This document shows positions 5,178 to 35,600 of a DNA stretch of 64,000 nucleotides, piece after piece. How positions within the stretch are numbered: the first letter of the stretch is position 1; each line of letters opens with the position of its first letter. Below the pieces are notes generated by a model, which saw only the letters and a program-made list of their open reading frames with translations, had not been told where the DNA came from and made no database searches. A program made the position numbers and the translations under genes. The stretch lies in assembly GCF_000710615.1 (NCBI RefSeq), contig NZ_JDTH01000002.1:860082-924081 (forward strand), read 5' to 3'. The DNA comes from Haladaptatus cibarius D43. GTDB lineage: Archaea; Halobacteriota; Halobacteria; Halobacteriales; Haladaptataceae.

Positions 5178-5663
5178 TCAGAAGTAGTCGGTGTGGAGGA
5201 TAAGAAACCGAGCCATGCCGAGCACCCACGTCAGAAGCCAGAAGACGATGTAGCCCGCGACACCGGCGCGAAGTCGCCAGCGCCACGAATCCATGTTTTC
5301 GTGGAGGTCGCTGATGTCCATGCCGGGATTCGGCGTGCCGTACAAATCGTGGGCGCGCTTGACCTGAAAGATTCTGACGATACCCGTGAGCGCGAGAATT
5401 AGCATCGCGTAGGCTTGCAATCCGAGGAAGGCGTGAACCGCCGCGAGGCCGCCGAACTGGCGCTCGAATCGGGGAATCATCCACACCACTGCGGGAACCG
5501 TCGTCAGCAGGAGGCCGGTAACGATGAACTTCAGATGATGCGTGAGAACGTTCCACGTCACCGTTTCGGCTTCGATAATTATCCACGCGCCGTAGAGGTA
5601 GAACGGAAGACTCGCCGTCACGACTAGCGCGACCACTGATGCAATCGCCGCGTCGCTTACCAT
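5178..5663 (-). CDS. Four-helix membrane protein beside the bc-type locus
   Basis: 161 residues with four predicted membrane helices (about 5-30, 42-63, 74-97 and 134-157). Histidines near helix ends (THHLKF, VHAFLG, KRAHDLYG, ILHTDYF) raise the possibility of haem b binding, as in b561-type proteins, but no defined motif proves it. Probably one of the haloarchaeal DUF7321-type proteins that accompany the halocyanin/Rieske/cytochrome b genes. It is divergent from the DUF7319-like gene, and the two share a short promoter region at 5664-5752. Confidence 0.5.
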   Translation of the reverse strand: MVSDAAIASVVALVVTASLPFYLYGAWIIIEAETVTWNVLTHHLKFIVTGLLLTTVPAVVWMIPRFERQFGGLAAVHAFLGLQAYAMLILALTGIVRIFQVKRAHDLYGTPNPGMDISDLHENMDSWRWRLRAGVAGYIVFWLLTWVLGMARFLILHTDYF

Positions 5664-5752
5664 AGTCGGTGGTTAGGCTGGGGCGCGTTAAACCGTCCGA
5701 AACGTCGGTCAGGACAGAAGATGTTTAGCCGTCGAAGCGTAACGTCCGAACA

Positions 5753-6541
5753 ATGGCTGACTCCGACAGTGGGACGCAGGGCGCAGGGGAAGACGCGCCG
5801 GAGGAATCCCGCGAGGAACTTCGCCGCGAGGTCGATGAGAAGTACGACTTCGAGGATTTCGGCCCGGAAGATATGGCGGAGATGTCGCTCGAAGAGTGGG
5901 AGGCCGCGTTCGACCCGGATACGTGGATTACGGGCAGGGAACTGCTCGACCGGGTCGAGGCCGACCTGAAACATCGCGTCGCAATTCGGGAGGTATTCGC
6001 CGTCATCGAGCGAACTTCACACGAAGGGGAACCATTGTTGGTCGCCTATTCGGACGAAGGCTACGCCGTGGTCTATCCCGACGGAAGCGTCGAAGGGCGC
6101 GGAACCGTCCTCCGCGACGTGAAACCGACGGTTGCGCTGGCGTCGATGGAAGAGTACGACGTGCCGGAGATGCCGGAAGGCGAGCAACTGCCCCACCCCG
6201 ACGAGGTACCGGAGGGGAGCGGCGAACTCGGCAACAAGTTGATGCAGACGATTGCGGCCATCCACGTCGTCGCCGGATTCGGGATGATGATTGCGTGGTT
6301 CCTCGTCTACTTCGAAATCGTTAGCGTTTCGGACAATATCCAAGACGGCGCACCACTGTTGGCACTCGTCGGCGGGGGCTTTTTCGTCTTCGGATTTTTC
6401 GTCCTGCTCATCGTGGCGAATGCCCGACTTTCCGACAGATTCCGGTCGGAAGAGTACCGAAATCGCCTGCGTTCCGCTGGCGTGGATTCCGACTATCGAC
6501 CCGACTTTCTCCGGGAAGAAGAAGAGGAACGAGACGACTGA
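5753..6541 (+). CDS. DUF7319-like membrane protein of the bc locus
   Basis: 262 residues. The N-terminal two thirds are soluble and very acidic: a charged start (EESREELRREVDEKYDFEDF) leads to a compact domain with an ITGRELLDRVE helix and a strand run GEPLLVAYSDEGYAVVYPDG. Two membrane helices follow (about 158-183 and 195-220), then a charged C-terminus with arginine and glutamate tracts. No cofactor motif is visible. It lies 88 bp before the halocyanin gene on the same strand, so it is probably an accessory protein of the electron transport complex. The DUF number is from memory. Confidence 0.5.
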   Translation: MADSDSGTQGAGEDAPEESREELRREVDEKYDFEDFGPEDMAEMSLEEWEAAFDPDTWITGRELLDRVEADLKHRVAIREVFAVIERTSHEGEPLLVAYSDEGYAVVYPDGSVEGRGTVLRDVKPTVALASMEEYDVPEMPEGEQLPHPDEVPEGSGELGNKLMQTIAAIHVVAGFGMMIAWFLVYFEIVSVSDNIQDGAPLLALVGGGFFVFGFFVLLIVANARLSDRFRSEEYRNRLRSAGVDSDYRPDFLREEEEERDD

Positions 6542-6595
6542 ACCGGCGGGAGCAGTTCCCAAACTGTCGATGTGGGCACTCCCGGGGCATCGGTG

Positions 6596-6604
6596 GGTTT
6601 AAGC
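6596..6604 (+). promoter_or_regulatory. TATA box for the halocyanin-Rieske-cytochrome b operon
   Basis: GGTTTAAGC lies 26-34 nt upstream of the ATG at 6630, which supports a leaderless mRNA. It indicates that the operon can be transcribed separately from the preceding DUF gene. Confidence 0.55.
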
Positions 6605-6629
6605 AAGTCCCATCCTGACCAACACATGT

Positions 6630-7325
6630 ATGAAGAGGCGGGAATTTCTACTGGCGGCCAGCGGCGTTGCTGGCGGAACTGCCGCGGCGGCGGTACCCGC
6701 TGGTGCGCAGCAGACGACAACGTCTGGAGGTGGCAACCAGTCCGGCGGCAACGGGACTGGCGGCACCCAGACGACGACGTCAGGCGGTGGCAACCAGTCA
6801 AATGGAAACCAGTCTAGCGGCAATCAATCACAAGGAGGCGGCGGCGGTGGCGGCGGAACGGAGACGGTTATCGTCGGCCCGGGCGGCGAACTCGTGTTCG
6901 AACCGGCCGACCTCCAAATTTCACCCGGCACCACCGTCGAGTGGGTATGGGAATCCGACACGCACAACGTGATTCCGACGAGCCAACCCGACGGGGCTGG
7001 CTGGGAAGGAAGCGGCAGTGAAGGAGAGACGTTCGACACGGGTCACACGTACAGTCACACCTTCGACACCGAAGGCTCCTACGAGTACGTCTGTATTCCA
7101 CACGAAACCGCTGGCATGACCGGCACAATCACGGTCGGTAGTGGTGGCGGTGGCGGTGGCGGCGGCGGTGGCTCTGCGGAAGCCGACCCGGAACACATGG
7201 GCGTGCCGTTTCAGGCACACTACGTTGGAATTGCGACGATTCTGATGATGATCATGTCGCTCATCTTTACGTTCTTCTTCCTGAAATACGGCGAATCACC
7301 ACACACCAGCGGAGGGAACAGATAA
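6630..7325 (+). CDS. Halocyanin (membrane-anchored blue copper protein)
   Basis: 231 residues. A Tat signal (KRREFLLAASG) opens the protein, followed by a low-complexity Gly/Ser/Thr/Gln linker with two copies of a Q-T-T-T-S-G-G-G-N-Q-type unit. The plastocyanin-like domain spans about 77-168 with copper ligands H111, C154, H157 and M162 (CIPHETAGM). A poly-glycine spacer follows, then a C-terminal membrane helix (about 197-219). The protein would carry electrons on the outer membrane face, here probably as acceptor from the Rieske/cytochrome b complex encoded directly downstream. The downstream gene starts immediately after the stop. The domain is nearly identical to the halocyanin at 33509-34186. 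Confidence 0.9.
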   Translation: MKRREFLLAASGVAGGTAAAAVPAGAQQTTTSGGGNQSGGNGTGGTQTTTSGGGNQSNGNQSSGNQSQGGGGGGGGTETVIVGPGGELVFEPADLQISPGTTVEWVWESDTHNVIPTSQPDGAGWEGSGSEGETFDTGHTYSHTFDTEGSYEYVCIPHETAGMTGTITVGSGGGGGGGGGGSAEADPEHMGVPFQAHYVGIATILMMIMSLIFTFFFLKYGESPHTSGGNR

Positions 7326-7712
7326 ATGTCCTCGTCAGGAAGCACATACGGCGACATACACCGATACGAACCGGCGCGAGAAAGCACGACGGCCGCCATC
7401 GCAATCGTCCTGTTGACGATTATCGAAGTGGTGTTCGTCGGCTTGTTCACCTACGGTCTTCTCAACGGATGGGGACTGACCGAACTCGGTAACATGTACC
7501 TTGGTGGCGTTCTCGCCGTCATCTTCGTCGACCTCGCGTTCATCCTCATGCTGTATCGCAAGGAGTTCCTCCCCGACGTGATGATCGTCAAAAAGCGTCG
7601 TCGCAAGTGGGAAGACCTCTACGTGCGTGAGGAAGAGCAGTACGGAACCGAGTCGTTCGGAGACGCATGGGAACAGTTCAAACGAGCAGTGTACCCCTAC
7701 TACAAACGATAA
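7326..7712 (+). CDS. DUF7318-like small membrane protein
   Basis: 128 residues with two membrane helices (about 22-45 and 57-77) and a long basic/aromatic C-terminal tail (VKKRRRKWEDLY, FKRAVYPYYKR) predicted to lie in the cytoplasm. It sits without a gap between the halocyanin and Rieske genes in a tightly packed operon, so it is likely a structural or assembly subunit of the bc-type complex. It has no similarity I recognise to canonical bc1 or b6f small subunits. The DUF label is from memory. Confidence 0.6.
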   Translation: MSSSGSTYGDIHRYEPARESTTAAIAIVLLTIIEVVFVGLFTYGLLNGWGLTELGNMYLGGVLAVIFVDLAFILMLYRKEFLPDVMIVKKRRRKWEDLYVREEEQYGTESFGDAWEQFKRAVYPYYKR

Positions 7713-7715
7713 ACT

Positions 7716-8564
7716 ATGGCAGGAGACGACAAATATCCAGAGAGCACAGGTCGCCGCCGATTCGTCAAAGGCGTCGTCGGAAGCGCGACGCTCGCCAGTG
7801 TTGGCACTGCGGGTGCCGCTTCGCTCACGACGACGACGGCTTCCGCGGGTGCCGGTGGTGGTATTACACAGTTCATGGGGATGGAAAACACGGCAGGGCC
7901 TGCACCGCGTGCAATGCCTCAAATCCCTATCGAAATAGACGACGAAGGGTATGTCAAGGGATTCTTCCCGGAAGCATCGACGCGAACGGAGCAGGGTCGA
8001 GAAATCACCGTTGCCGAGGCCGACATCGGTGGCATGACCTACTCGGCAAACTGGTTCCAGTACTGCGGCGTCCAGACCTACAAAGGCATCAAGCCGGACG
8101 CCGACATGGACAACTACTTCCGCTACAAGGAAGGCGCGAAGTACGAATGGCAGGCGAACGACGTCAACGCCGGGGACAAAGTCCACATCGACGACTTCAG
8201 CGATTACCAGTCGTGGGGCAACGGCATCGGTAAATCCGGCCTCGGTAAACCGGCGATGGTAACGTGGCGTTCACAGGACGTTCCCCCGAGCCAGACGATG
8301 ACCGTCCAGCTCATTCGAAGCACGAACGTCGAACAGATGTCGGGCGAAAGTGAGTGGCTCAAAGCGAGTACCAAAGAAGGCTTCATCGCCAATCTCAACA
8401 AATGCACACACTTCTGCTGTGTGCCGATGTTCAAGGGCCTCTCAAACGCCGCGAAGTTCGGTGCCGCGGACGAGATTTACTGTCCGTGCCACCAGTCGGT
8501 GTACGACCCCTTCAGCATCGTTAGAAAATCATTCGTGGCGTTGCCACGGCCGGAGGGTGAGTAA
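7716..8564 (+). CDS. Rieske iron-sulfur protein of a bc-type complex
   Basis: 282 residues. An N-terminal Tat signal (GRRRFVKGVVG) precedes a Rieske domain. Box 1 is C230-T-H232-F-C-C235 and box 2 is C256-P-C258-H259-Q-S. C230, H232, C256 and H259 would bind the [2Fe-2S] cluster, and C235/C258 form the usual disulfide. The canonical glycines (CTHLGC, CPCHGS) are replaced by C234 and Q260, which could shift the redox potential. A long insertion precedes the cluster domain. The stop overlaps the next start (TAATG), so translation is probably coupled with cytochrome b. Confidence 0.9.
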   Translation: MAGDDKYPESTGRRRFVKGVVGSATLASVGTAGAASLTTTTASAGAGGGITQFMGMENTAGPAPRAMPQIPIEIDDEGYVKGFFPEASTRTEQGREITVAEADIGGMTYSANWFQYCGVQTYKGIKPDADMDNYFRYKEGAKYEWQANDVNAGDKVHIDDFSDYQSWGNGIGKSGLGKPAMVTWRSQDVPPSQTMTVQLIRSTNVEQMSGESEWLKASTKEGFIANLNKCTHFCCVPMFKGLSNAAKFGAADEIYCPCHQSVYDPFSIVRKSFVALPRPEGE

Positions 8565-9358
8565 TGAGTATCGAACGCAAGGACGAACACGACCACGGTG
8601 AGTGGCTCCGTGAGAAAGAACTCACCCCCATCGAGACGACGTTCCTCACGACGCTCATCTGGATGGACAAACGGTTCCGCATCGTGGACTACCTCGAAAT
8701 ACTGGAGACGTTGTACTATCGCGTCAACCTCCAGATGCCAAAAAGCCACACCGAGCAGTACGGACTGGACAACAAATTCTGGTACTGGTATCCGCTGTAC
8801 GCACTGGGTAGCTTCTCGACTATCGCATACGTAGTGGCCGCAGTCAGCGGTGCGCTGCTCGGGTTCTACTACTCGCCATCGACGGCGGGCGACCCCACGG
8901 CGGCGTACAACCAGTTGGCGTACATCATGGCCGACCTCAACTTCGGATTCATGCTCCGGAGTATTCACCGCTGGGCCGCACAAGTGATGGTGGCGGCGGT
9001 ATTCCTTCACATGCTCCGTGTCTACTTCACGGGCGCGTACAAGGAGCCACGCGAGGTCAACTGGATTCTCGGCATCATCCTCATCAGCTTGACGATGGTG
9101 TTCGGGTACACGGGCTACCTACTCCCGTGGGACCAGTTGGCGTTCTGGGCGGGACAGATCGGCGTCGAAATGAGCCTGTCGGTGCCACTCGTCGGCGAGT
9201 GGGTTGCACAGCTCCTATTCGGCGGCTTCAGCCTGAGCCAGGCGACACTGCAACGGATGTACATCCTGCACGTGTTCTTGCTCCCGTTCGTCGTGACTAC
9301 GCTCATCGCGGTACACATCGGCATCGTCTGGATGCAGGGCATCGCAGAACCACACTGA
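8564..9358 (+). CDS. petB: Cytochrome b, N-terminal four-helix half (b6 type)
   Basis: 264 residues with the four haem-bearing helices of cytochrome b. The histidine pairs are H135/H149 (14 apart) and H236/H251 (15 apart). The 15-residue spacing on the second helix is the b6f pattern; mitochondrial-type bc1 has 14 on both. No cysteine is present, so the covalent haem c(n) of plant b6 is unlikely. An N-terminal extension of about 70 polar residues precedes the first helix. The C-terminal half of cytochrome b is a separate gene just downstream. The protein would oxidise menaquinol in the membrane. Confidence 0.92.
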   Translation: MSIERKDEHDHGEWLREKELTPIETTFLTTLIWMDKRFRIVDYLEILETLYYRVNLQMPKSHTEQYGLDNKFWYWYPLYALGSFSTIAYVVAAVSGALLGFYYSPSTAGDPTAAYNQLAYIMADLNFGFMLRSIHRWAAQVMVAAVFLHMLRVYFTGAYKEPREVNWILGIILISLTMVFGYTGYLLPWDQLAFWAGQIGVEMSLSVPLVGEWVAQLLFGGFSLSQATLQRMYILHVFLLPFVVTTLIAVHIGIVWMQGIAEPH

Positions 9359-9362
9359 TACC

Positions 9363-10127
9363 ATGACCGACGAAAACGAACCCGAACCCCGAACCGACGG
9401 AAGCGGTACCGGCATCGTCTCGCCGGACGACGAGACTCCCTCGTGGCTTGAGCGGAAGCAGCGCACGCAGGGACTCTCCCGGCTGACATACGAATACTTC
9501 GAGCGCTCGCGCAGGGAAGACGAAGACCTGCGACAGGAATCGAGCTACGTCGAACGCGACGTGCTCGCGTTCCCGACGTGGCCCCACGAGATGATTCGTA
9601 ATCTCTCGATTACGAGTTTCTTCGTCGGGATGATTCTGTTCCTCGCCGCTGCGCTCCCACCTCACCTCGGCCCACCGGCCGACCCGAGTTCGACGCCAGC
9701 GATTATCCTGCCCGACTGGTATCTGTACTGGTCGTTCGGCCTGCTGAAGCTAGGGCCACTGAACCCCGAACTCGCCATCCTCGGTGGCGACAAACTGATG
9801 GCAGACCGAACCTACGGTGTCGTCGCAAACGGCGTCGTCGTCGGTATCATCGCCATCGTACCGTTCCTGAACAAGGGGAGCGCTCGTCGACCGGTCGAAC
9901 AACCGTTCTGGGCCGCGGTCGGTATGTTCGGCGTGGTCTTCTCGCTCACTATCAGCACGCTCGCCATCAAGAACCTGATGCCTATCGACTCGCACCTGCT
10001 CTTCGACTTGACGTTCCTCCTGCCCATCGCAGCAGGAACCATCACCTACGCGGTGTTGAAGTCGATGCGTGAAGGGTACATGTTCAGCCTCAACCGCCGG
10101 TACTACCGCCTGCGACCGCCGAAATAA
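9363..10127 (+). CDS. petD: Cytochrome b C-terminal half (subunit IV-like)
   Basis: 254 residues. After a polar N-terminal segment of about 75 residues come roughly four hydrophobic helices. The quinol-site motif PDWYLYW corresponds to the PEWY motif of cytochrome b/subunit IV, with Asp in place of Glu as in several b6f-like proteins. It starts four bases after petB ends. Together they make a b6f-type split cytochrome b. The split is not a frameshift: both halves have their own starts and soluble extensions. Confidence 0.88.
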   Translation: MTDENEPEPRTDGSGTGIVSPDDETPSWLERKQRTQGLSRLTYEYFERSRREDEDLRQESSYVERDVLAFPTWPHEMIRNLSITSFFVGMILFLAAALPPHLGPPADPSSTPAIILPDWYLYWSFGLLKLGPLNPELAILGGDKLMADRTYGVVANGVVVGIIAIVPFLNKGSARRPVEQPFWAAVGMFGVVFSLTISTLAIKNLMPIDSHLLFDLTFLLPIAAGTITYAVLKSMREGYMFSLNRRYYRLRPPK

Positions 10128-10140
10128 CCCGACTTTCTTT

Positions 10141-10521
10141 ATGTCTTCACGCGACGACGAATCAGAGACTAGCTACTCGGCTTTCGACGACGAGAGCGAT
10201 GGGAACGGCGAATCGAACGCGAATGAAAGTTCGACCGGTATCGCGTCCCGCGACGTCGTCGTCCCGCTACAACTGTACAAAATCGTCACCGTCTTTTCGA
10301 CGATGTTCGCGGTCTTCACCGTCGTCGGTGGGTTCATCGCACTGGATTTTGCAACTAACCGGGCGAGCGCGCCGATTTCGGAGGTCAACTATCCGCTTGC
10401 GATTTTCGGACTCCTCCTCATCGTGGCGGGGACGGTCGTGTACGCGTTTTCCACTCGCTTCCGCGCTGAGGGAATGGGAAAGTCTAAAGACGACTCCGAC
10501 GAACCGTCAAACAATGGCTGA
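10141..10521 (+). CDS. DUF7315-like membrane protein of the bc operon
   Basis: 126 residues from the ATG at 10141. An upstream ATG in the same frame lies inside petD and is unlikely. A hydrophilic Ser/Asp/Glu-rich head of about 45 residues is followed by two membrane helices (about 46-70 and 82-104) and a charged tail. No cofactor motif. It lies 13 bp after petD and overlaps the next gene by eight bases, so it belongs to the operon, probably as a small subunit of the complex. DUF number from memory. Confidence 0.6.
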   Translation: MSSRDDESETSYSAFDDESDGNGESNANESSTGIASRDVVVPLQLYKIVTVFSTMFAVFTVVGGFIALDFATNRASAPISEVNYPLAIFGLLLIVAGTVVYAFSTRFRAEGMGKSKDDSDEPSNNG

Positions 10522-10768
10522 CGAATTCATAAAGGGACTCAGTATTGCCACCTGTGCGGGGTTCGCGTGGATGGTTCTTTCGGGCTGGTACACGACACCC
10601 GGGTTCGAAGACACGCAACTCATCGGTGAGGTTCCGACTGGCCTCGACATGTACGGTAGCCTCGCCATCATACTCCGCGAAGCGTTCTTCTGGTTCGCCA
10701 TCCTCGGTATGCTGTTCTTCTGGGTCATCATCCCCGGCATTCGCCAACTTCGACTGGCACGACAGTAA
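10514..10768 (+). CDS. DUF7314-like small membrane protein of the bc operon
   Basis: 84 residues starting at 10514, inside the end of the preceding gene (8-bp overlap), which implies translational coupling. Two membrane helices (about 7-25 and 48-75) are connected by a loop with TPGFEDTQLIGEVPTG. It is the last gene of the operon; nothing on this strand follows for over 1.9 kb. No family beyond the haloarchaeal DUF is recognised. Confidence 0.6.
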   Translation: MADEFIKGLSIATCAGFAWMVLSGWYTTPGFEDTQLIGEVPTGLDMYGSLAIILREAFFWFAILGMLFFWVIIPGIRQLRLARQ

Positions 10769-10914
10769 TCGCGGCGTCGAACCGAAAACGAACTACCAGC
10801 AAAACGCATCTACCCTTCTTTCGTCTTCTAACACGTAGCTGTTAGAGTACGCACGTAGCCATCAGTTCCAAAGAAATTGGCTCAACTCGCGCGTAAACTC
10901 GGTCTTCAGTATGG

Positions 10915-11664
10915 CTACTCGCCTGCGGCGTCGATTCGCGTTCCGGGCGTTTCCCCATCGAGAAACGAAGATACGTCGTCCGGGGAGAAAATCGACGCCG
11001 GAGCGCCGAGTTCGAGAAGCGAGCGAACTTTTCCGGCCATGCCGCCGGTCACGTCGGTCGATTCGCTCTCGCCGAGTACGTCCGCGACAGCTTCGTAGGC
11101 CGTGATTTCGGGGATGACCTCGTCGTTTTCGTCCAACACTCCCGGAACCGTCGAACAGAAACCAACGCGGTCGGCGTCGAGGTGGCGTGCCACCGAGACG
11201 ACGAGTTCGTCGCCGCTGACGACGGTGACGCCTTCGCCCTCGTGGGCGACCACGTCGCCGTGGAGAACAGGGACGAATCCCTCTTTCAGCATCGTCTCGA
11301 TTTGTTCGGTCGGGAGGGTGAGAGACGCGACTGCGTCTCTCACCGCGGCGGAGAACGGATGGACGGGAACGGCTGGAATTCCTCGGTCGTGAAGCCACGA
11401 GAGGACGAAGTTGTTCAGGGTCTTCATCGCGCCGTGGATGTCGGTGACCGCGTCGATGTCGCTACTCCCGCTCGTTTTCGACACGCCGTGTTCGCTCGCG
11501 TGGTGGTGGCCGAAACTGCCGCCGCCGTGAACCAACACGAGGTCGTCCACGCTCGCGTCGCTGATTGCATCGCTGACTTTCCCGAGGGTCTCGCCATCGA
11601 GCGTGTCGGCACGGTCTTTGTCCGTGATGACGCTTCCGCCGAGTTTGAGGACGGTGAGACTCAT
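10915..11664 (-). CDS. ipk: Isopentenyl phosphate kinase
   Basis: 249 residues of the amino-acid-kinase fold. Motifs are LKLGGSVITDK at the N-terminus, LVHGGGSFGHHHA (the histidine here matches the catalytic substrate-binding His of IPKs), a GDVV loop, and DVTGGMAGKV near the C-terminus. It converts isopentenyl phosphate to IPP with ATP, the last step of the alternate mevalonate pathway. Its ATG overlaps the mevalonate kinase stop (ATGA), so the two are one translationally coupled unit. Glutamate 5-kinase is an alternative fold relative, but the HHHA motif and neighbour argue for IPK. Confidence 0.9.
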   Translation of the reverse strand: MSLTVLKLGGSVITDKDRADTLDGETLGKVSDAISDASVDDLVLVHGGGSFGHHHASEHGVSKTSGSSDIDAVTDIHGAMKTLNNFVLSWLHDRGIPAVPVHPFSAAVRDAVASLTLPTEQIETMLKEGFVPVLHGDVVAHEGEGVTVVSGDELVVSVARHLDADRVGFCSTVPGVLDENDEVIPEITAYEAVADVLGESESTDVTGGMAGKVRSLLELGAPASIFSPDDVSSFLDGETPGTRIDAAGE

Positions 11665-12644
11665 TCTTCGCGCACCCCCTCGGTGTCGAGTTCGGCACGG
11701 AACGCATCTTCACATCCGGGCGTAAATCGAAGTGCCGTCTCGGTTTCGTCGGTCGGGTCGAGGGCGACGATACAGCCGCCGCCACCTGCACCCGTGAGTT
11801 TCGCGCCGAGCGCGCCCGCGTCGCGGGCCGCCCAGACCATATTGTCGAGCGAGCGCGAGGAAACGCCGAGCGCTTCCAGCAGGCCGTGATTGAAGTTCAT
11901 CAGCTTACCGAGCTCTTCGGTGTCTCCCTCGGTCAGCGCGCGCTCTCCTTTCCGGACGATGTCGCCGATGCTTTTCACTGTCTCCCCCGCAAACTCGTAC
12001 TCATCGCGGAGCGCGCGAACGCCAGCCACGAGTTTGCCCGTATCGCCAGCACCGCCGTCGAAGCCGACGACGATGGGTAACTCCGGCGATTCGACGGCTC
12101 GACAGTCGTCTCCTTCCACGCGAACCGCGCCACCAGTTGCAGAGCAGAACGTGTCCGCACGCGAAGCCTCGCCGTCCTGTACCGCGAGTTCCGCCCGATA
12201 CGCTCTGTCTGCGATTTCGTCGCTCGAAAGCGATACGCCGAGTTCGCGCGTTGCGGCGTCGATTGCGGCGACGGTCACCGCCGCGGAGGAACCGAGCCCG
12301 GCACCCAGCGGAATGTCGCTTTCGACGGTGATGTCGAAACCAGCGTCCGGCCTATCAGTCGCATTGCGGGCCTGTTCGATTGCGGCGTCGATGTAGCCGA
12401 TTCCGGCCTGAACGAGCGATTCCGAGACGTTCACGTCGGGCGTTTCGTCGGTGCTGCCGCTGTATTCGACGGTGAATCCGTCGATGCTAAGGTCTGATAG
12501 ATGAACACGAAGGCGGTCGTCGTCGCGTGATTCGACTGTCACCGTCGCCCGGCGCTCGATGGCACAGGGGACGGCGGGTTCGCCATACACTACGGCGTGT
12601 TCCCCGAATAGATACACCTTCCCCGGGGCGCTCGAAACGGTCAT
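11661..12644 (-). CDS. mvk: Mevalonate kinase
   Basis: 327 residues starting at 12644 (APGKVYLFGEHAVVYGE follows immediately, the classical N-terminal GHMP motif). The frame continues upstream to 12722 but without conserved residues and into the divergent promoter. The ATP loop is PLGAGLGSSAAVTVAAID and the C-terminal motif is LTGAGGGGCIVAL. It phosphorylates mevalonate to 5-phosphomevalonate, the substrate for the decarboxylase at 2247-3221. Overlaps ipk by four bases. Confidence 0.93.
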   Translation of the reverse strand: MTVSSAPGKVYLFGEHAVVYGEPAVPCAIERRATVTVESRDDDRLRVHLSDLSIDGFTVEYSGSTDETPDVNVSESLVQAGIGYIDAAIEQARNATDRPDAGFDITVESDIPLGAGLGSSAAVTVAAIDAATRELGVSLSSDEIADRAYRAELAVQDGEASRADTFCSATGGAVRVEGDDCRAVESPELPIVVGFDGGAGDTGKLVAGVRALRDEYEFAGETVKSIGDIVRKGERALTEGDTEELGKLMNFNHGLLEALGVSSRSLDNMVWAARDAGALGAKLTGAGGGGCIVALDPTDETETALRFTPGCEDAFRAELDTEGVREE

Positions 12645-12756
12645 GTCGTACTCTCGGTGAGCGGGGGGTATCACTTTTTTCGAATGGATTGCGTCGCTGG
12701 TGTCCCTGCGTGCAAGAGTCAACGCATATATCGTCGGGGAGAACCATCGTCGTACT

Positions 12757-32935: not shown

Positions 32936-33508
32936 ATGCCAGACGTAGCCATCATCGGCGGCGGTCCCGCCGGACTGAGTGCCGCACTGTTCACTGCGAA
33001 AAACGGCCTCGACACGGTCGTCTTCGATACGGACGAAACTGCGATGCACGCCGCCCACCTGTGGAACTATCTGGGCATCAAAAGCATCGACGGCAGTGAA
33101 TACATGGGAATCGCACGCGAGCAGGTGGACGAACAGGGTGCGGAACGAAAACAAGGTGAGGAAGTAACCAGCGTCGAGAAGTCGGACGAAGAATTCACGA
33201 TTACGGCGGAGTCCGGCGAATCCAACGACTCCAACGAATACGATGCGAAATACATCGTATTCACGACTGGTCGCGCTCGGGATATGGCGGAAGAACTGGG
33301 CTGTGAATTGAACGACGACGGCACGGTGAAAATAGACATGGACAACGCGACGACGGTGGAGAACGCCTACGCCGCCGGGTGGACGGCGCGCGCTGACAAA
33401 ATCCAAGCGGCAATCTCCGTCGGCGGCGGCGCGGCCGCCGGGCTGGATATTTTGAGCGCGGAAAAGGGACGTGCGTTCCACGACTTCGATACGCCGGAGG
33501 ACGCGTAG
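32936..33508 (+). CDS. Truncated thioredoxin-reductase-like flavoprotein
   Basis: 190 residues. The N-terminal FAD motif IIGGGPAGLSAALFTAKNG and the C-terminal FAD/flavin segment NAYAAGWTARADKIQAAISV are those of thioredoxin reductases. The NADPH-binding domain and its redox CxxC are missing; the protein jumps from a short Glu/Ser-rich region to the C-terminal FAD part. The only cysteine, in EELGCELN, is not a CxxC. It is an intact gene of a size seen repeatedly in haloarchaea, so a separate FAD-only family is likelier than decay. Its stop abuts the stop of the convergent halocyanin (TAGCTA). Confidence 0.7.
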   Translation: MPDVAIIGGGPAGLSAALFTAKNGLDTVVFDTDETAMHAAHLWNYLGIKSIDGSEYMGIAREQVDEQGAERKQGEEVTSVEKSDEEFTITAESGESNDSNEYDAKYIVFTTGRARDMAEELGCELNDDGTVKIDMDNATTVENAYAAGWTARADKIQAAISVGGGAAAGLDILSAEKGRAFHDFDTPEDA

Positions 33509-34186
33509 CTAGTCGTCGAACTCGCCGTAGTCGCCGCCGAACTTCATGAAGAAGTAGGCTAGTCCGAGGGTGAACGCCATCGCGCCGGTCGATGCGACGC
33601 CGAGCGTTTTCGCGCTCTCGGGAATTGCAGGGCCAGCCGGTTCGCCCCCGCCTTCACTGCCACCAACTGTGATGGTGCCGGTCATACCGGACGTCGCGTG
33701 CGGAACACACTCGTACTCGTAGGAGCCTTCGGTGTCGAAGGTATGGCTGTACGTGTGACCCGTGTCGAACGTTTCGCTCTCGCTTCCGCTTCCTTCCCAG
33801 CCAGCCCCGTCGGGTTGGCTCGTCGGAATCACGTTGTGCGTGTCGGATTCCCACACGAACTCGACGGTAGTGCCGGGTTGAATCTGGAGTTCGGCCGGTT
33901 CGAACACGAGTTCGCCGCCCGGGCCGACGACGACTGTCTCGGTTCCGCCGCCACCACCGCCGCTGGTGGTCGTTCCGCCGGAGGTGCCGTTACCACCGCT
34001 GGTCGTGGTTCCGTTGGTGGTTGTTCCGGTGGTTGTACCGTTGCTGGTGGTCGTCGTCCCACCACTGGTGGTGGTTGTACCATCCTGCGCGGCGGCTGTT
34101 CCGGCCGCGCCGACAGCCGCGACGCCCGCAGAACCGAGGAGAAATCCGCGTCGGGTGACTGACTCGTCCGCTTCCCCATCTGTCAT
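33509..34186 (-). CDS. Halocyanin, second copy
   Basis: 225 residues from the ATG at 34186; the frame to 34318 runs through an inverted repeat and is not coding. A Tat signal (TRRGFLLGSAGVAAVGAAG) is followed by a Thr/Gly/Ser linker built of TTTSGG/NGTT-like units, a plastocyanin-like domain with SDTHNVIP, CVPHATSGM supplying Cys, His and Met ligands, and a C-terminal membrane helix (LGVASTGAMAFTLGLAYFFM). It stands alone rather than in a bc operon, so it may serve another oxidase. The domain shares a 68-nt identical tract with the halocyanin at 6630. Confidence 0.88.
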   Translation of the reverse strand: MTDGEADESVTRRGFLLGSAGVAAVGAAGTAAAQDGTTTTSGGTTTTSNGTTTGTTTNGTTTSGGNGTSGGTTTSGGGGGGTETVVVGPGGELVFEPAELQIQPGTTVEFVWESDTHNVIPTSQPDGAGWEGSGSESETFDTGHTYSHTFDTEGSYEYECVPHATSGMTGTITVGGSEGGGEPAGPAIPESAKTLGVASTGAMAFTLGLAYFFMKFGGDYGEFDD

Positions 34187-34550: not shown

Positions 34551-35600
34551 CTATAGTCGATAATCGTGCTCGCCGGTTTCTGTTTCGAGGAACGCGGTGA
34601 GCAGGTCGATAGTTGCTGAAATGTCGTCGCCGTGGGCGCTTTCGGTTACGGTGTGCAGGTAGCGCGTTGGAATGGAAATCGCGCCGACCGGCTTTGCACC
34701 GTGGGTGTTCTGAAATCCGGCGGTGTCGGTGCCGCCGGATGGAAGCACTTCGAGTTGGTGTTCGATGTCGCGTTCCGCGGCCAGTTCGCGCATTCGTCGG
34801 TGAACTTTGGGCGACGTGACGACGCTTCCGTCTTTGAGTTTGATGGCGGTTCCCTCGCCGAGACGAGTGACGTAGTCCTTTTCGTACTTGACTTTGGGAA
34901 TGTCGTTTGCGACCGTCACGTCGAGCGCAACGGCGAGGTCTGGGTCAACGTCCACACCGAGTGCTTCCGCTCCTCTGAGGCCGATTTCCTCCTGCACTGT
35001 GGCACAGAAATGAATCGTCACGCTCGGATTCTCGATTCGTTTTGCGGCTTCGAGCATTGCGAAGAGACAGACGCGGTCGTCCAACGCCTTCCCGGAGACG
35101 TGGTCGCCGACCCGCGTCGTCGTCTGTTCCATCGTGACGATGTCGCCGACGGAGACGCGGGATTCGGCTTCCTCGGCGGAAAGCCCGAGGTCGATGTAGA
35201 CGTCCGAAACGTCCTGTTCGTCCTCGTCGTCGTCCAACAGGTGCGGCGGCGTCGAACCGATGACCCCGGTCAAATCTTCGTCTTCTGCGTGAACCGTAAC
35301 GCGCTGTGCGCGGAGAATTCGGGAGTCCCACCCACCCAGTGAGTCAATCGAGAGAAAGCCGTCCTCGTTTACGTGCGTGACCATGAACCCGATTTCGTCC
35401 ATGTGGGCCGGAACGGCGACTTCGTAGTTGCTTTCGCCCTCAATTGTCCCGACGACGTTGCCCATCGCGTCGGTGCGAATTTCGTCCACTTCCTCTTCCA
35501 ATTCCCGGCGGACGACGTTCCGGATTCGGTCTTCGTACCCCGGTGCACCACTTGTTTCGGTCAGTTCTCGCAACAGTTCGAAATCGAAATCAAACGCCAT
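34551..35600 (-). CDS. M42-family metalloaminopeptidase
   Basis: 349 residues, the family size. Metal-site segments are VAVPAHMDEIGFMV (His, Asp), ALDDRVCLFAMLEA (bridging Asp), CATVQEEIGLRGAE (catalytic Glu pair), VALDVTVAN and the final SIPTRYLHTVTES (His). TET-type peptidases of this family form dodecamers that trim peptides after proteasomal cleavage. A negatively charged insertion (LLDDDEDEQDVSD) lies in the PDZ-like domain. Transcribed toward the second halocyanin. Confidence 0.88.
   Translation of the reverse strand: MAFDFDFELLRELTETSGAPGYEDRIRNVVRRELEEEVDEIRTDAMGNVVGTIEGESNYEVAVPAHMDEIGFMVTHVNEDGFLSIDSLGGWDSRILRAQRVTVHAEDEDLTGVIGSTPPHLLDDDEDEQDVSDVYIDLGLSAEEAESRVSVGDIVTMEQTTTRVGDHVSGKALDDRVCLFAMLEAAKRIENPSVTIHFCATVQEEIGLRGAEALGVDVDPDLAVALDVTVANDIPKVKYEKDYVTRLGEGTAIKLKDGSVVTSPKVHRRMRELAAERDIEHQLEVLPSGGTDTAGFQNTHGAKPVGAISIPTRYLHTVTESAHGDDISATIDLLTAFLETETGEHDYRL

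Follow-up and report, generated by a model that had tools for sequence, protein, structure and literature searches.

The window is a stretch of 64,000 nucleotides from Haladaptatus cibarius D43 (contig NZ_JDTH01000002.1, positions 860,082 to 924,081), and it carries two genes, A and B, for membrane-anchored halocyanin-like proteins. Gene A has a twin-arginine-type leader, a Gly/Thr-rich linker, a copper domain, and a C-terminal hydrophobic anchor, the leader and the anchor being read from the sequence. It lies within a cytochrome-b/Rieske operon, ahead of the Rieske-like and cytochrome b genes. Gene B encodes 225 residues counted from the Met codon at 34184-34186, and its leader and anchor are unlike those of A. 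The features of the two loci are as follows.

5753..6541, + strand: DUF7319 gene upstream of A, a marker of A context
6630..7325, + strand: gene A, membrane-anchored halocyanin-like blue copper protein, 231 aa (Pfam PF00127, translation)
6867..7136, + strand: copper domain of A, the homogenised unit, 270 nt
6948..7015, + strand: 68-nt tract of A, identical to B
7326..7712, + strand: DUF7318 gene downstream of A, a marker of A context
7716..8564, + strand: Rieske-like protein gene (NCBIfam TIGR01416, E 1e-10, under its cut-off)
8564..9358, + strand: cytochrome b N-terminal part (PF00033)
9363..10127, + strand: cytochrome b C-terminal part (PF00032)
32936..33508, + strand: pyridine-nucleotide oxidoreductase-like gene on the other flank of B (PF07992)
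33509..34186, - strand: gene B, second membrane-anchored halocyanin-like protein (Pfam PF00127, orthologue starts)
33665..33934, - strand: copper domain of B
33786..33853, - strand: 68-nt tract of B, identical to A
34551..35600, - strand: M42 peptidase gene adjoining B, a marker of B context that adjoins B in other genomes too (PF05343)

By Pfam score and four ligands, A and B are predicted type-1 blue copper proteins. Both pass the curated cut-off of 21.2 bits for Pfam PF00127 (Copper-bind), A with 65.6 bits and B with 63.7 bits, and the four residues His, Cys, His, and Met, taken here to be the type-1 copper ligands, are invariant in 92 of 92 A and B sequences. The NCBIfam halocyanin domain TIGR03102 is the best NCBIfam match for each (A 66.4 bits, B 62.2 bits), although both scores fall under its cut-off of 93.8. 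Because the Pfam Copper-bind cut-off is passed and the NCBIfam halocyanin cut-off is missed, the proteins are termed halocyanin-like. The operon context suggests that A and B may act as carriers between a bc-type complex and terminal oxidases. One genome of the genus Haladaptatus, G007 (L120, L121), is without A, B, and a Rieske-like match, and its DUF7318 match is marginal. It has possibly lost the bc-type complex along with both carriers, and this single genome weakly suggests a place for B in the electron chain of the bc-type complex. The window genome also contains a second Rieske-like gene (G000:C6:53561-54394), which shares 66% identity with that of the window. Three genomes of family f5 (G083, G130, and G121; L104, L105, and L114) have no Rieske-like gene between DUF7318 and cytochrome b, and each has a Rieske-like match elsewhere in its genome.

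An earlier note, made from the window sequence, had claimed that positions 6948-7015 are the reverse complement of 33786-33853, and the identity holds at 68 of 68 positions. Genes A and B share further exact inverted matches of 40 nt (6871-6910/33891-33930), 31 nt (7059-7089/33712-33742), and 26 nt (7029-7054/33747-33772), and the only repeats of at least 20 nt in the window are the A/B matches and one 22-nt self-match at about 55.85 kb. In the window genome, all 31 A/B differences in the copper domain fall among the 202 positions outside the tract, which itself has 0 in 68. Conversion runs were judged by purpose-made run-length permutations in place of GENECONV/RDP; a run as long as 68 nt has P = 0.0015 when columns are weighted by their variability between Haladaptatus orthologues and P = 0.0036 with uniform column weights. 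Across the 46 genomes compared, the permutation gives 0.05 or more in 20, some of which are near-identical throughout, so that the test has no power, and others plainly diverged. The tract had been said to span the copper-ligand His region; this applies to the first His ligand, whose codon (6963-6965) lies inside it, but the codons for the other three, Cys, second His, and Met (7092-7118), fall beyond it.

On the A side, the block of A/B DNA similarity covers about 6838-7155, and it stops 29 nt ahead of the copper domain and 19 nt past it, which agrees with the earlier statement that linkers and anchors have diverged. Similarity is likewise domain-sized in all 27 genomes of the family search, with medians of 29 nt before and 17 nt after the domain, and outside the domain region no other A/B match occurs in these 27 genomes save a second hit in G020 and G023. 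Since A/B similarity stops about 30 nt before and about 20 nt after the domain, the converting unit would be the domain itself. The 68-nt patch had been read as a sign of recent gene conversion; it is a recent patch, but homogenisation takes in the entire domain, about 270 nt, and recurs in at least four families.

The comparison covers 46 haloarchaeal genomes with an A/B pair, which form a non-random sample. A family search supplied 27 of its 28 genomes, with G007 excluded as lacking both genes, and an order-wide search of 117 genomes, 76 of them matching (12 in the family besides the window genome, G000), supplied 19 more from families f5, f6, f7, and f13, hand-picked among the matches listed for visible A-like and B-like hits. 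G104, with a B-like gene only, and G122, with two A-like genes and no B, are uncounted. The two A-type-anchor genes of G122 (L118, L119) have strongly different copper domains, so an A-type pair need not homogenise. G025 was excluded from the neighbour-gene tree, as it meets a contig end, and the B gene of G026 from the leader comparison. The leader of the latter (L082) reads as frame-shifted while domain and anchor are intact, and a sequencing error or a broken start is possible. Among Haladaptatus genomes, the leader of A (first 30 codons, 6630-6719) has a median synonymous difference of only 0.078, far lower than the remainder of gene A and its neighbours, a 5'-end constraint without an explanation. 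G003, G004, and G021 are indicated as Haladaptatus litoreus CGMCC 1.7737, H. pallidirubidus YIM 93656, and Halorussus ruber YC25. Identity to the window genome along the window is 92.2% for G003, 88.0% for G004, and 82.9% for G001. The bc operon region (5178-12703) is about 93% identical to G004, as against 82-90% for most other aligned window segments, which hints at between-species exchange of the operon.

Copper domains and anchors give different trees. In the codon-level domain DNA tree, 16 of the 27 family genomes have their A and B domains as sisters, and a single clade holding every A domain is rejected (AU p 3e-7 with the 27 genomes, 1e-99 with the eight Haladaptatus). The domain tree of 92 sequences from all 46 genomes changes the A label 40 times and has A+B sister pairs in 23 genomes, whereas the anchor tree of the same genomes changes it once, with support of 100/100 for the split and 0 A+B sister pairs. 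Typing of A and B relied on the anchors, which makes the anchor tree partly circular, and gene context serves as the independent check. DUF7319 and DUF7318 flank A in all 19 extra genomes; in the family, the 3-kb A locus yielded DUF7319 in 27 of 27 genomes and DUF7318 and the Rieske-like gene in 26 of 27, the A context being intact save for DUF7318 in G025, where the contig ends. B adjoins the M42 gene in genomes of f1, f6, and f13. A and B are old paralogues that predate the species and have kept their contexts, and domain-based halocyanin trees group by genome while C-terminal anchors group by gene. The earlier note had favoured gene conversion and had proposed that the patch should group by genome and its flanks by orthologue; the trees came out in this way and support that reading.

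The A/B sister domains in half of the 46 genomes could also arise if B had been remade from A by recent, independent duplication in each lineage. Such duplications are highly unlikely, as the leaders, anchors, and neighbours of A and of B are each conserved across families and the anchors fall into one A/B split at 100/100. This single clean split, together with the conserved contexts, led to rejection of the duplication model.

Synonymous sites follow the same grouping by genome. For Haladaptatus, A and B of a single genome have a median synonymous difference of 0.13 (range 0.061-0.306, with the window genome at 0.306), compared with orthologue medians of 0.544 for A and 0.585 for B and with 0.39-0.52 for neighbour genes. 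Within-genome grouping at 0.13 against 0.54-0.58 rules out codon constraint. In the larger genus g3 the corresponding medians are 0.282 within genomes and 0.463 and 0.437 between orthologues. The own partner is the closest sequence for both copies in 24 of 46 genomes by protein identity and in 24 of 46 by synonymous difference; by protein identity, this is not the case in 22 of 46. In 45 of 46 genomes, the own synonymous value lies under the median that the genome shows for same-type comparisons. Lineage-specific insertions and deletions are common to both copies in G009, the f7 genomes, and others, and the A and B genes of G004 share a run of 240 identical nt. The pattern fits recurrent concerted evolution by gene conversion, for which at least five such species were required, and it includes synonymous sites.

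The strength of homogenisation differs among families. Median A/B protein identities within genomes and between orthologues are 0.901 and 0.689 in f1, 0.811 and 0.667 in f5, and 0.79 and 0.53 in f6; in f7, amino-acid identity is 0.953 within genomes and 0.535 between orthologues. Family f13 shows the reverse (0.586 within genomes, 0.756 between orthologues), and its copies are just 8-9 kb apart, yet diverged. Homogenisation has been escaped by f13, by G117 and G127 of f6, and, at the protein level, by G121, where A and B are 267 kb apart; in some genomes they lie on different contigs. Median synonymous difference is 0.248 for the 37 pairs separated by less than 100 kb and 0.445 for the nine others (Mann-Whitney P 0.03 for synonymous difference and P 0.008 for protein identity), an exploratory contrast that ignores relatedness and uses hand-entered distances. 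Against a simple effect of linkage, G014 and G018 are homogenised with their copies on different contigs, and the linked f13 pairs are not homogenised. The homogenisation does not extend to other copper domains in the window genome: 27 other pairs among eight domains have protein identities of 0.27-0.54 and synonymous differences of 0.52-0.82, compared with 0.86 and 0.37 for A/B on the same slightly longer stretch.

Identity in the tract might simply reflect slow evolution of a copper site that cannot change. The four ligands are invariant in all 92 sequences, and the domain is better conserved around the tract: the codon identity of Haladaptatus orthologues is 0.55-0.56 in codons 31-50, compared with 0.39-0.42 in five of the other eight bins. 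The earlier note had held that the same identity pattern in other species would speak for slow evolution. A and B are identical in the tract (0/68) in G004, G006, and G008, but the tract sequence itself varies between species, by up to 23 of 68 positions. The 68 columns differ at 3-5 positions between the window and the closest species and at 18-23 between the window and four other Haladaptatus, while the A/B difference inside any one of those four is only 0-7, and the pattern is carried by synonymous sites. Slow evolution cannot explain tract differences of this size between species; it is refuted by them and is regarded as most improbable.

The earlier note had also offered selection on the DNA. 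A regulatory or structural element acting at the DNA or RNA level would account for the identity itself, and nothing further was found in its favour; no conserved sequence or structure was seen at the tract across species in the alignments made. The tract sequence is free to change between species while staying equal within a genome, and identical runs occupy different places of the domain in different genomes. With a tract that varies and runs that move, selection of this kind finds no support and is scarcely credible.

Alternatively, the domain could have been imported from another species, followed by conversion between A and B. The domains of G002 and G006 stand next to other genera in the 92-row tree, and the unusual closeness of the G004 bc operon to the window indicates that between-species exchange may occur. 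Nonetheless, the AU test does not reject a single clade of Haladaptatus domains (p 0.44), these domains do form one clade in the 54-row tree, the divergence of domain orthologues is near that of neighbour genes, and import by itself cannot equalise A and B. Import from other genera is not supported, given the AU p of 0.44 for the Haladaptatus clade, and a contribution from imported domains is considered unlikely.

The best reading, and a very probable one, is recurrent gene conversion confined to the copper domain across at least four families. Copying between the loci is what remains, given the equality of synonymous sites in single genomes, the species-specific domain versions, and the conserved anchors and contexts. 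A and B would be old paralogues that keep their own leaders, anchors, and neighbourhoods while the shared copper domain is copied repeatedly between them, probably by non-reciprocal homologous recombination (gene conversion). Repeated copying would leave both genes of a species with a domain version particular to that species. The molecular event is presumed to be gene conversion and not double crossover, no sign of crossover at A having been seen among the A-locus neighbours checked in the 27 family genomes, and either gene may serve as donor. Both proteins may still stand in for each other as carriers linking the bc-type complex with terminal oxidases, which would be the reason that selection tolerates or favours the copying.

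In the window genome itself, homogenisation is patchy and recent, with only patches recently converted. Over the whole domain, the orthologues of G003 (H. litoreus) are nearer than the paralogue, and 14 informative sites group orthologues while 6 group paralogues; 3 of these 6 sit in the 68-nt tract, clustered in a span of six bases. At two of these three, columns 100 and 102, both copies of G003 show the same changes relative to G000 and G004. G004 equals the window at these columns, so the changes arose in the G003 line and reached both copies. Over the tract, the window and G003 are separated by 5 differences in A and 3 in B, compared with 0 between the window's own A and B. The 68-nt tract would be the longest recently homogenised patch in the window. 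At the 14 sites with an A/B difference on which G000 and G003 agree, G004 is part A-like and part B-like, and these mixed states mean that no single donor can be named.

A broader model is put forward tentatively, as possible but less likely than not to hold in full. In it, two fixed frames of leader, anchor, and regulation would surround one exchangeable copper-domain cassette that has been copied since before the families split; shared partners would select for joint change, and the coupling would end with unlinking or at a divergence threshold. Few prokaryotic cases of long-lasting, domain-restricted gene conversion are documented, and A/B adds a respiratory electron carrier to them. Haloarchaea include tractable polyploid laboratory species, and the lineages that keep or lose the coupling are natural replicates, which makes the causes that sustain or end it testable. 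For annotation, gene trees built on the copper domain of halocyanins mislead, and orthologue calls are better made from anchors and gene context.

The halocyanin of Natronomonas pharaonis is described, in the text available of two papers, as a one-electron carrier of the blue copper type and a presumed donor to terminal oxidases (PMC8305020, PMC3062577). The title of a work cited in PMC8305020 gives it as predicted to be lipid-anchored, whereas A and B have C-terminal hydrophobic anchors and sub-cut-off halocyanin scores. No report of A/B-type homogenisation in halocyanins was found in the literature searched, most subscription papers being outside the search.

In the polyploid Haloferax volcanii, intermolecular gene conversion is very efficient and includes diverged genes, according to the available text (PMC8223754). 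That process equalises chromosome copies at the same site in kilobase tracts (PMC8223754), whereas A and B are different loci with tracts of at most about 0.3 kb. By analogy, the same haloarchaeal conversion machinery that acts between chromosome copies may act on A and B.

A survey of recurrent concerted evolution in prokaryotes lists 26 genes, including tuf, psbA, and amoCAB (PMC6053082). As with A and B, its paralogues are nearer to each other than to orthologues at synonymous and non-synonymous sites in many species. Unlike A and B, most of its cases are near full-length; in the available text of the survey, halocyanin is absent, and haloarchaeal orders are absent from its archaeal Table 2 (PMC6053082).

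The closest precedent for the A/B pattern is the mtrA-1/mtrA-2 pair of methanogens, ancient paralogues whose soluble domain is homogenised while the transmembrane parts differ, as set out in the available part of that report (PMC4632066). Both systems are archaeal paralogues in which one domain is homogenised within species, over the long term and in more than one lineage. The two mtrA copies lie in one operon and serve methanogenesis (PMC4632066), whereas A and B are blue copper carriers of haloarchaea at separate loci about 6-158 kb apart.
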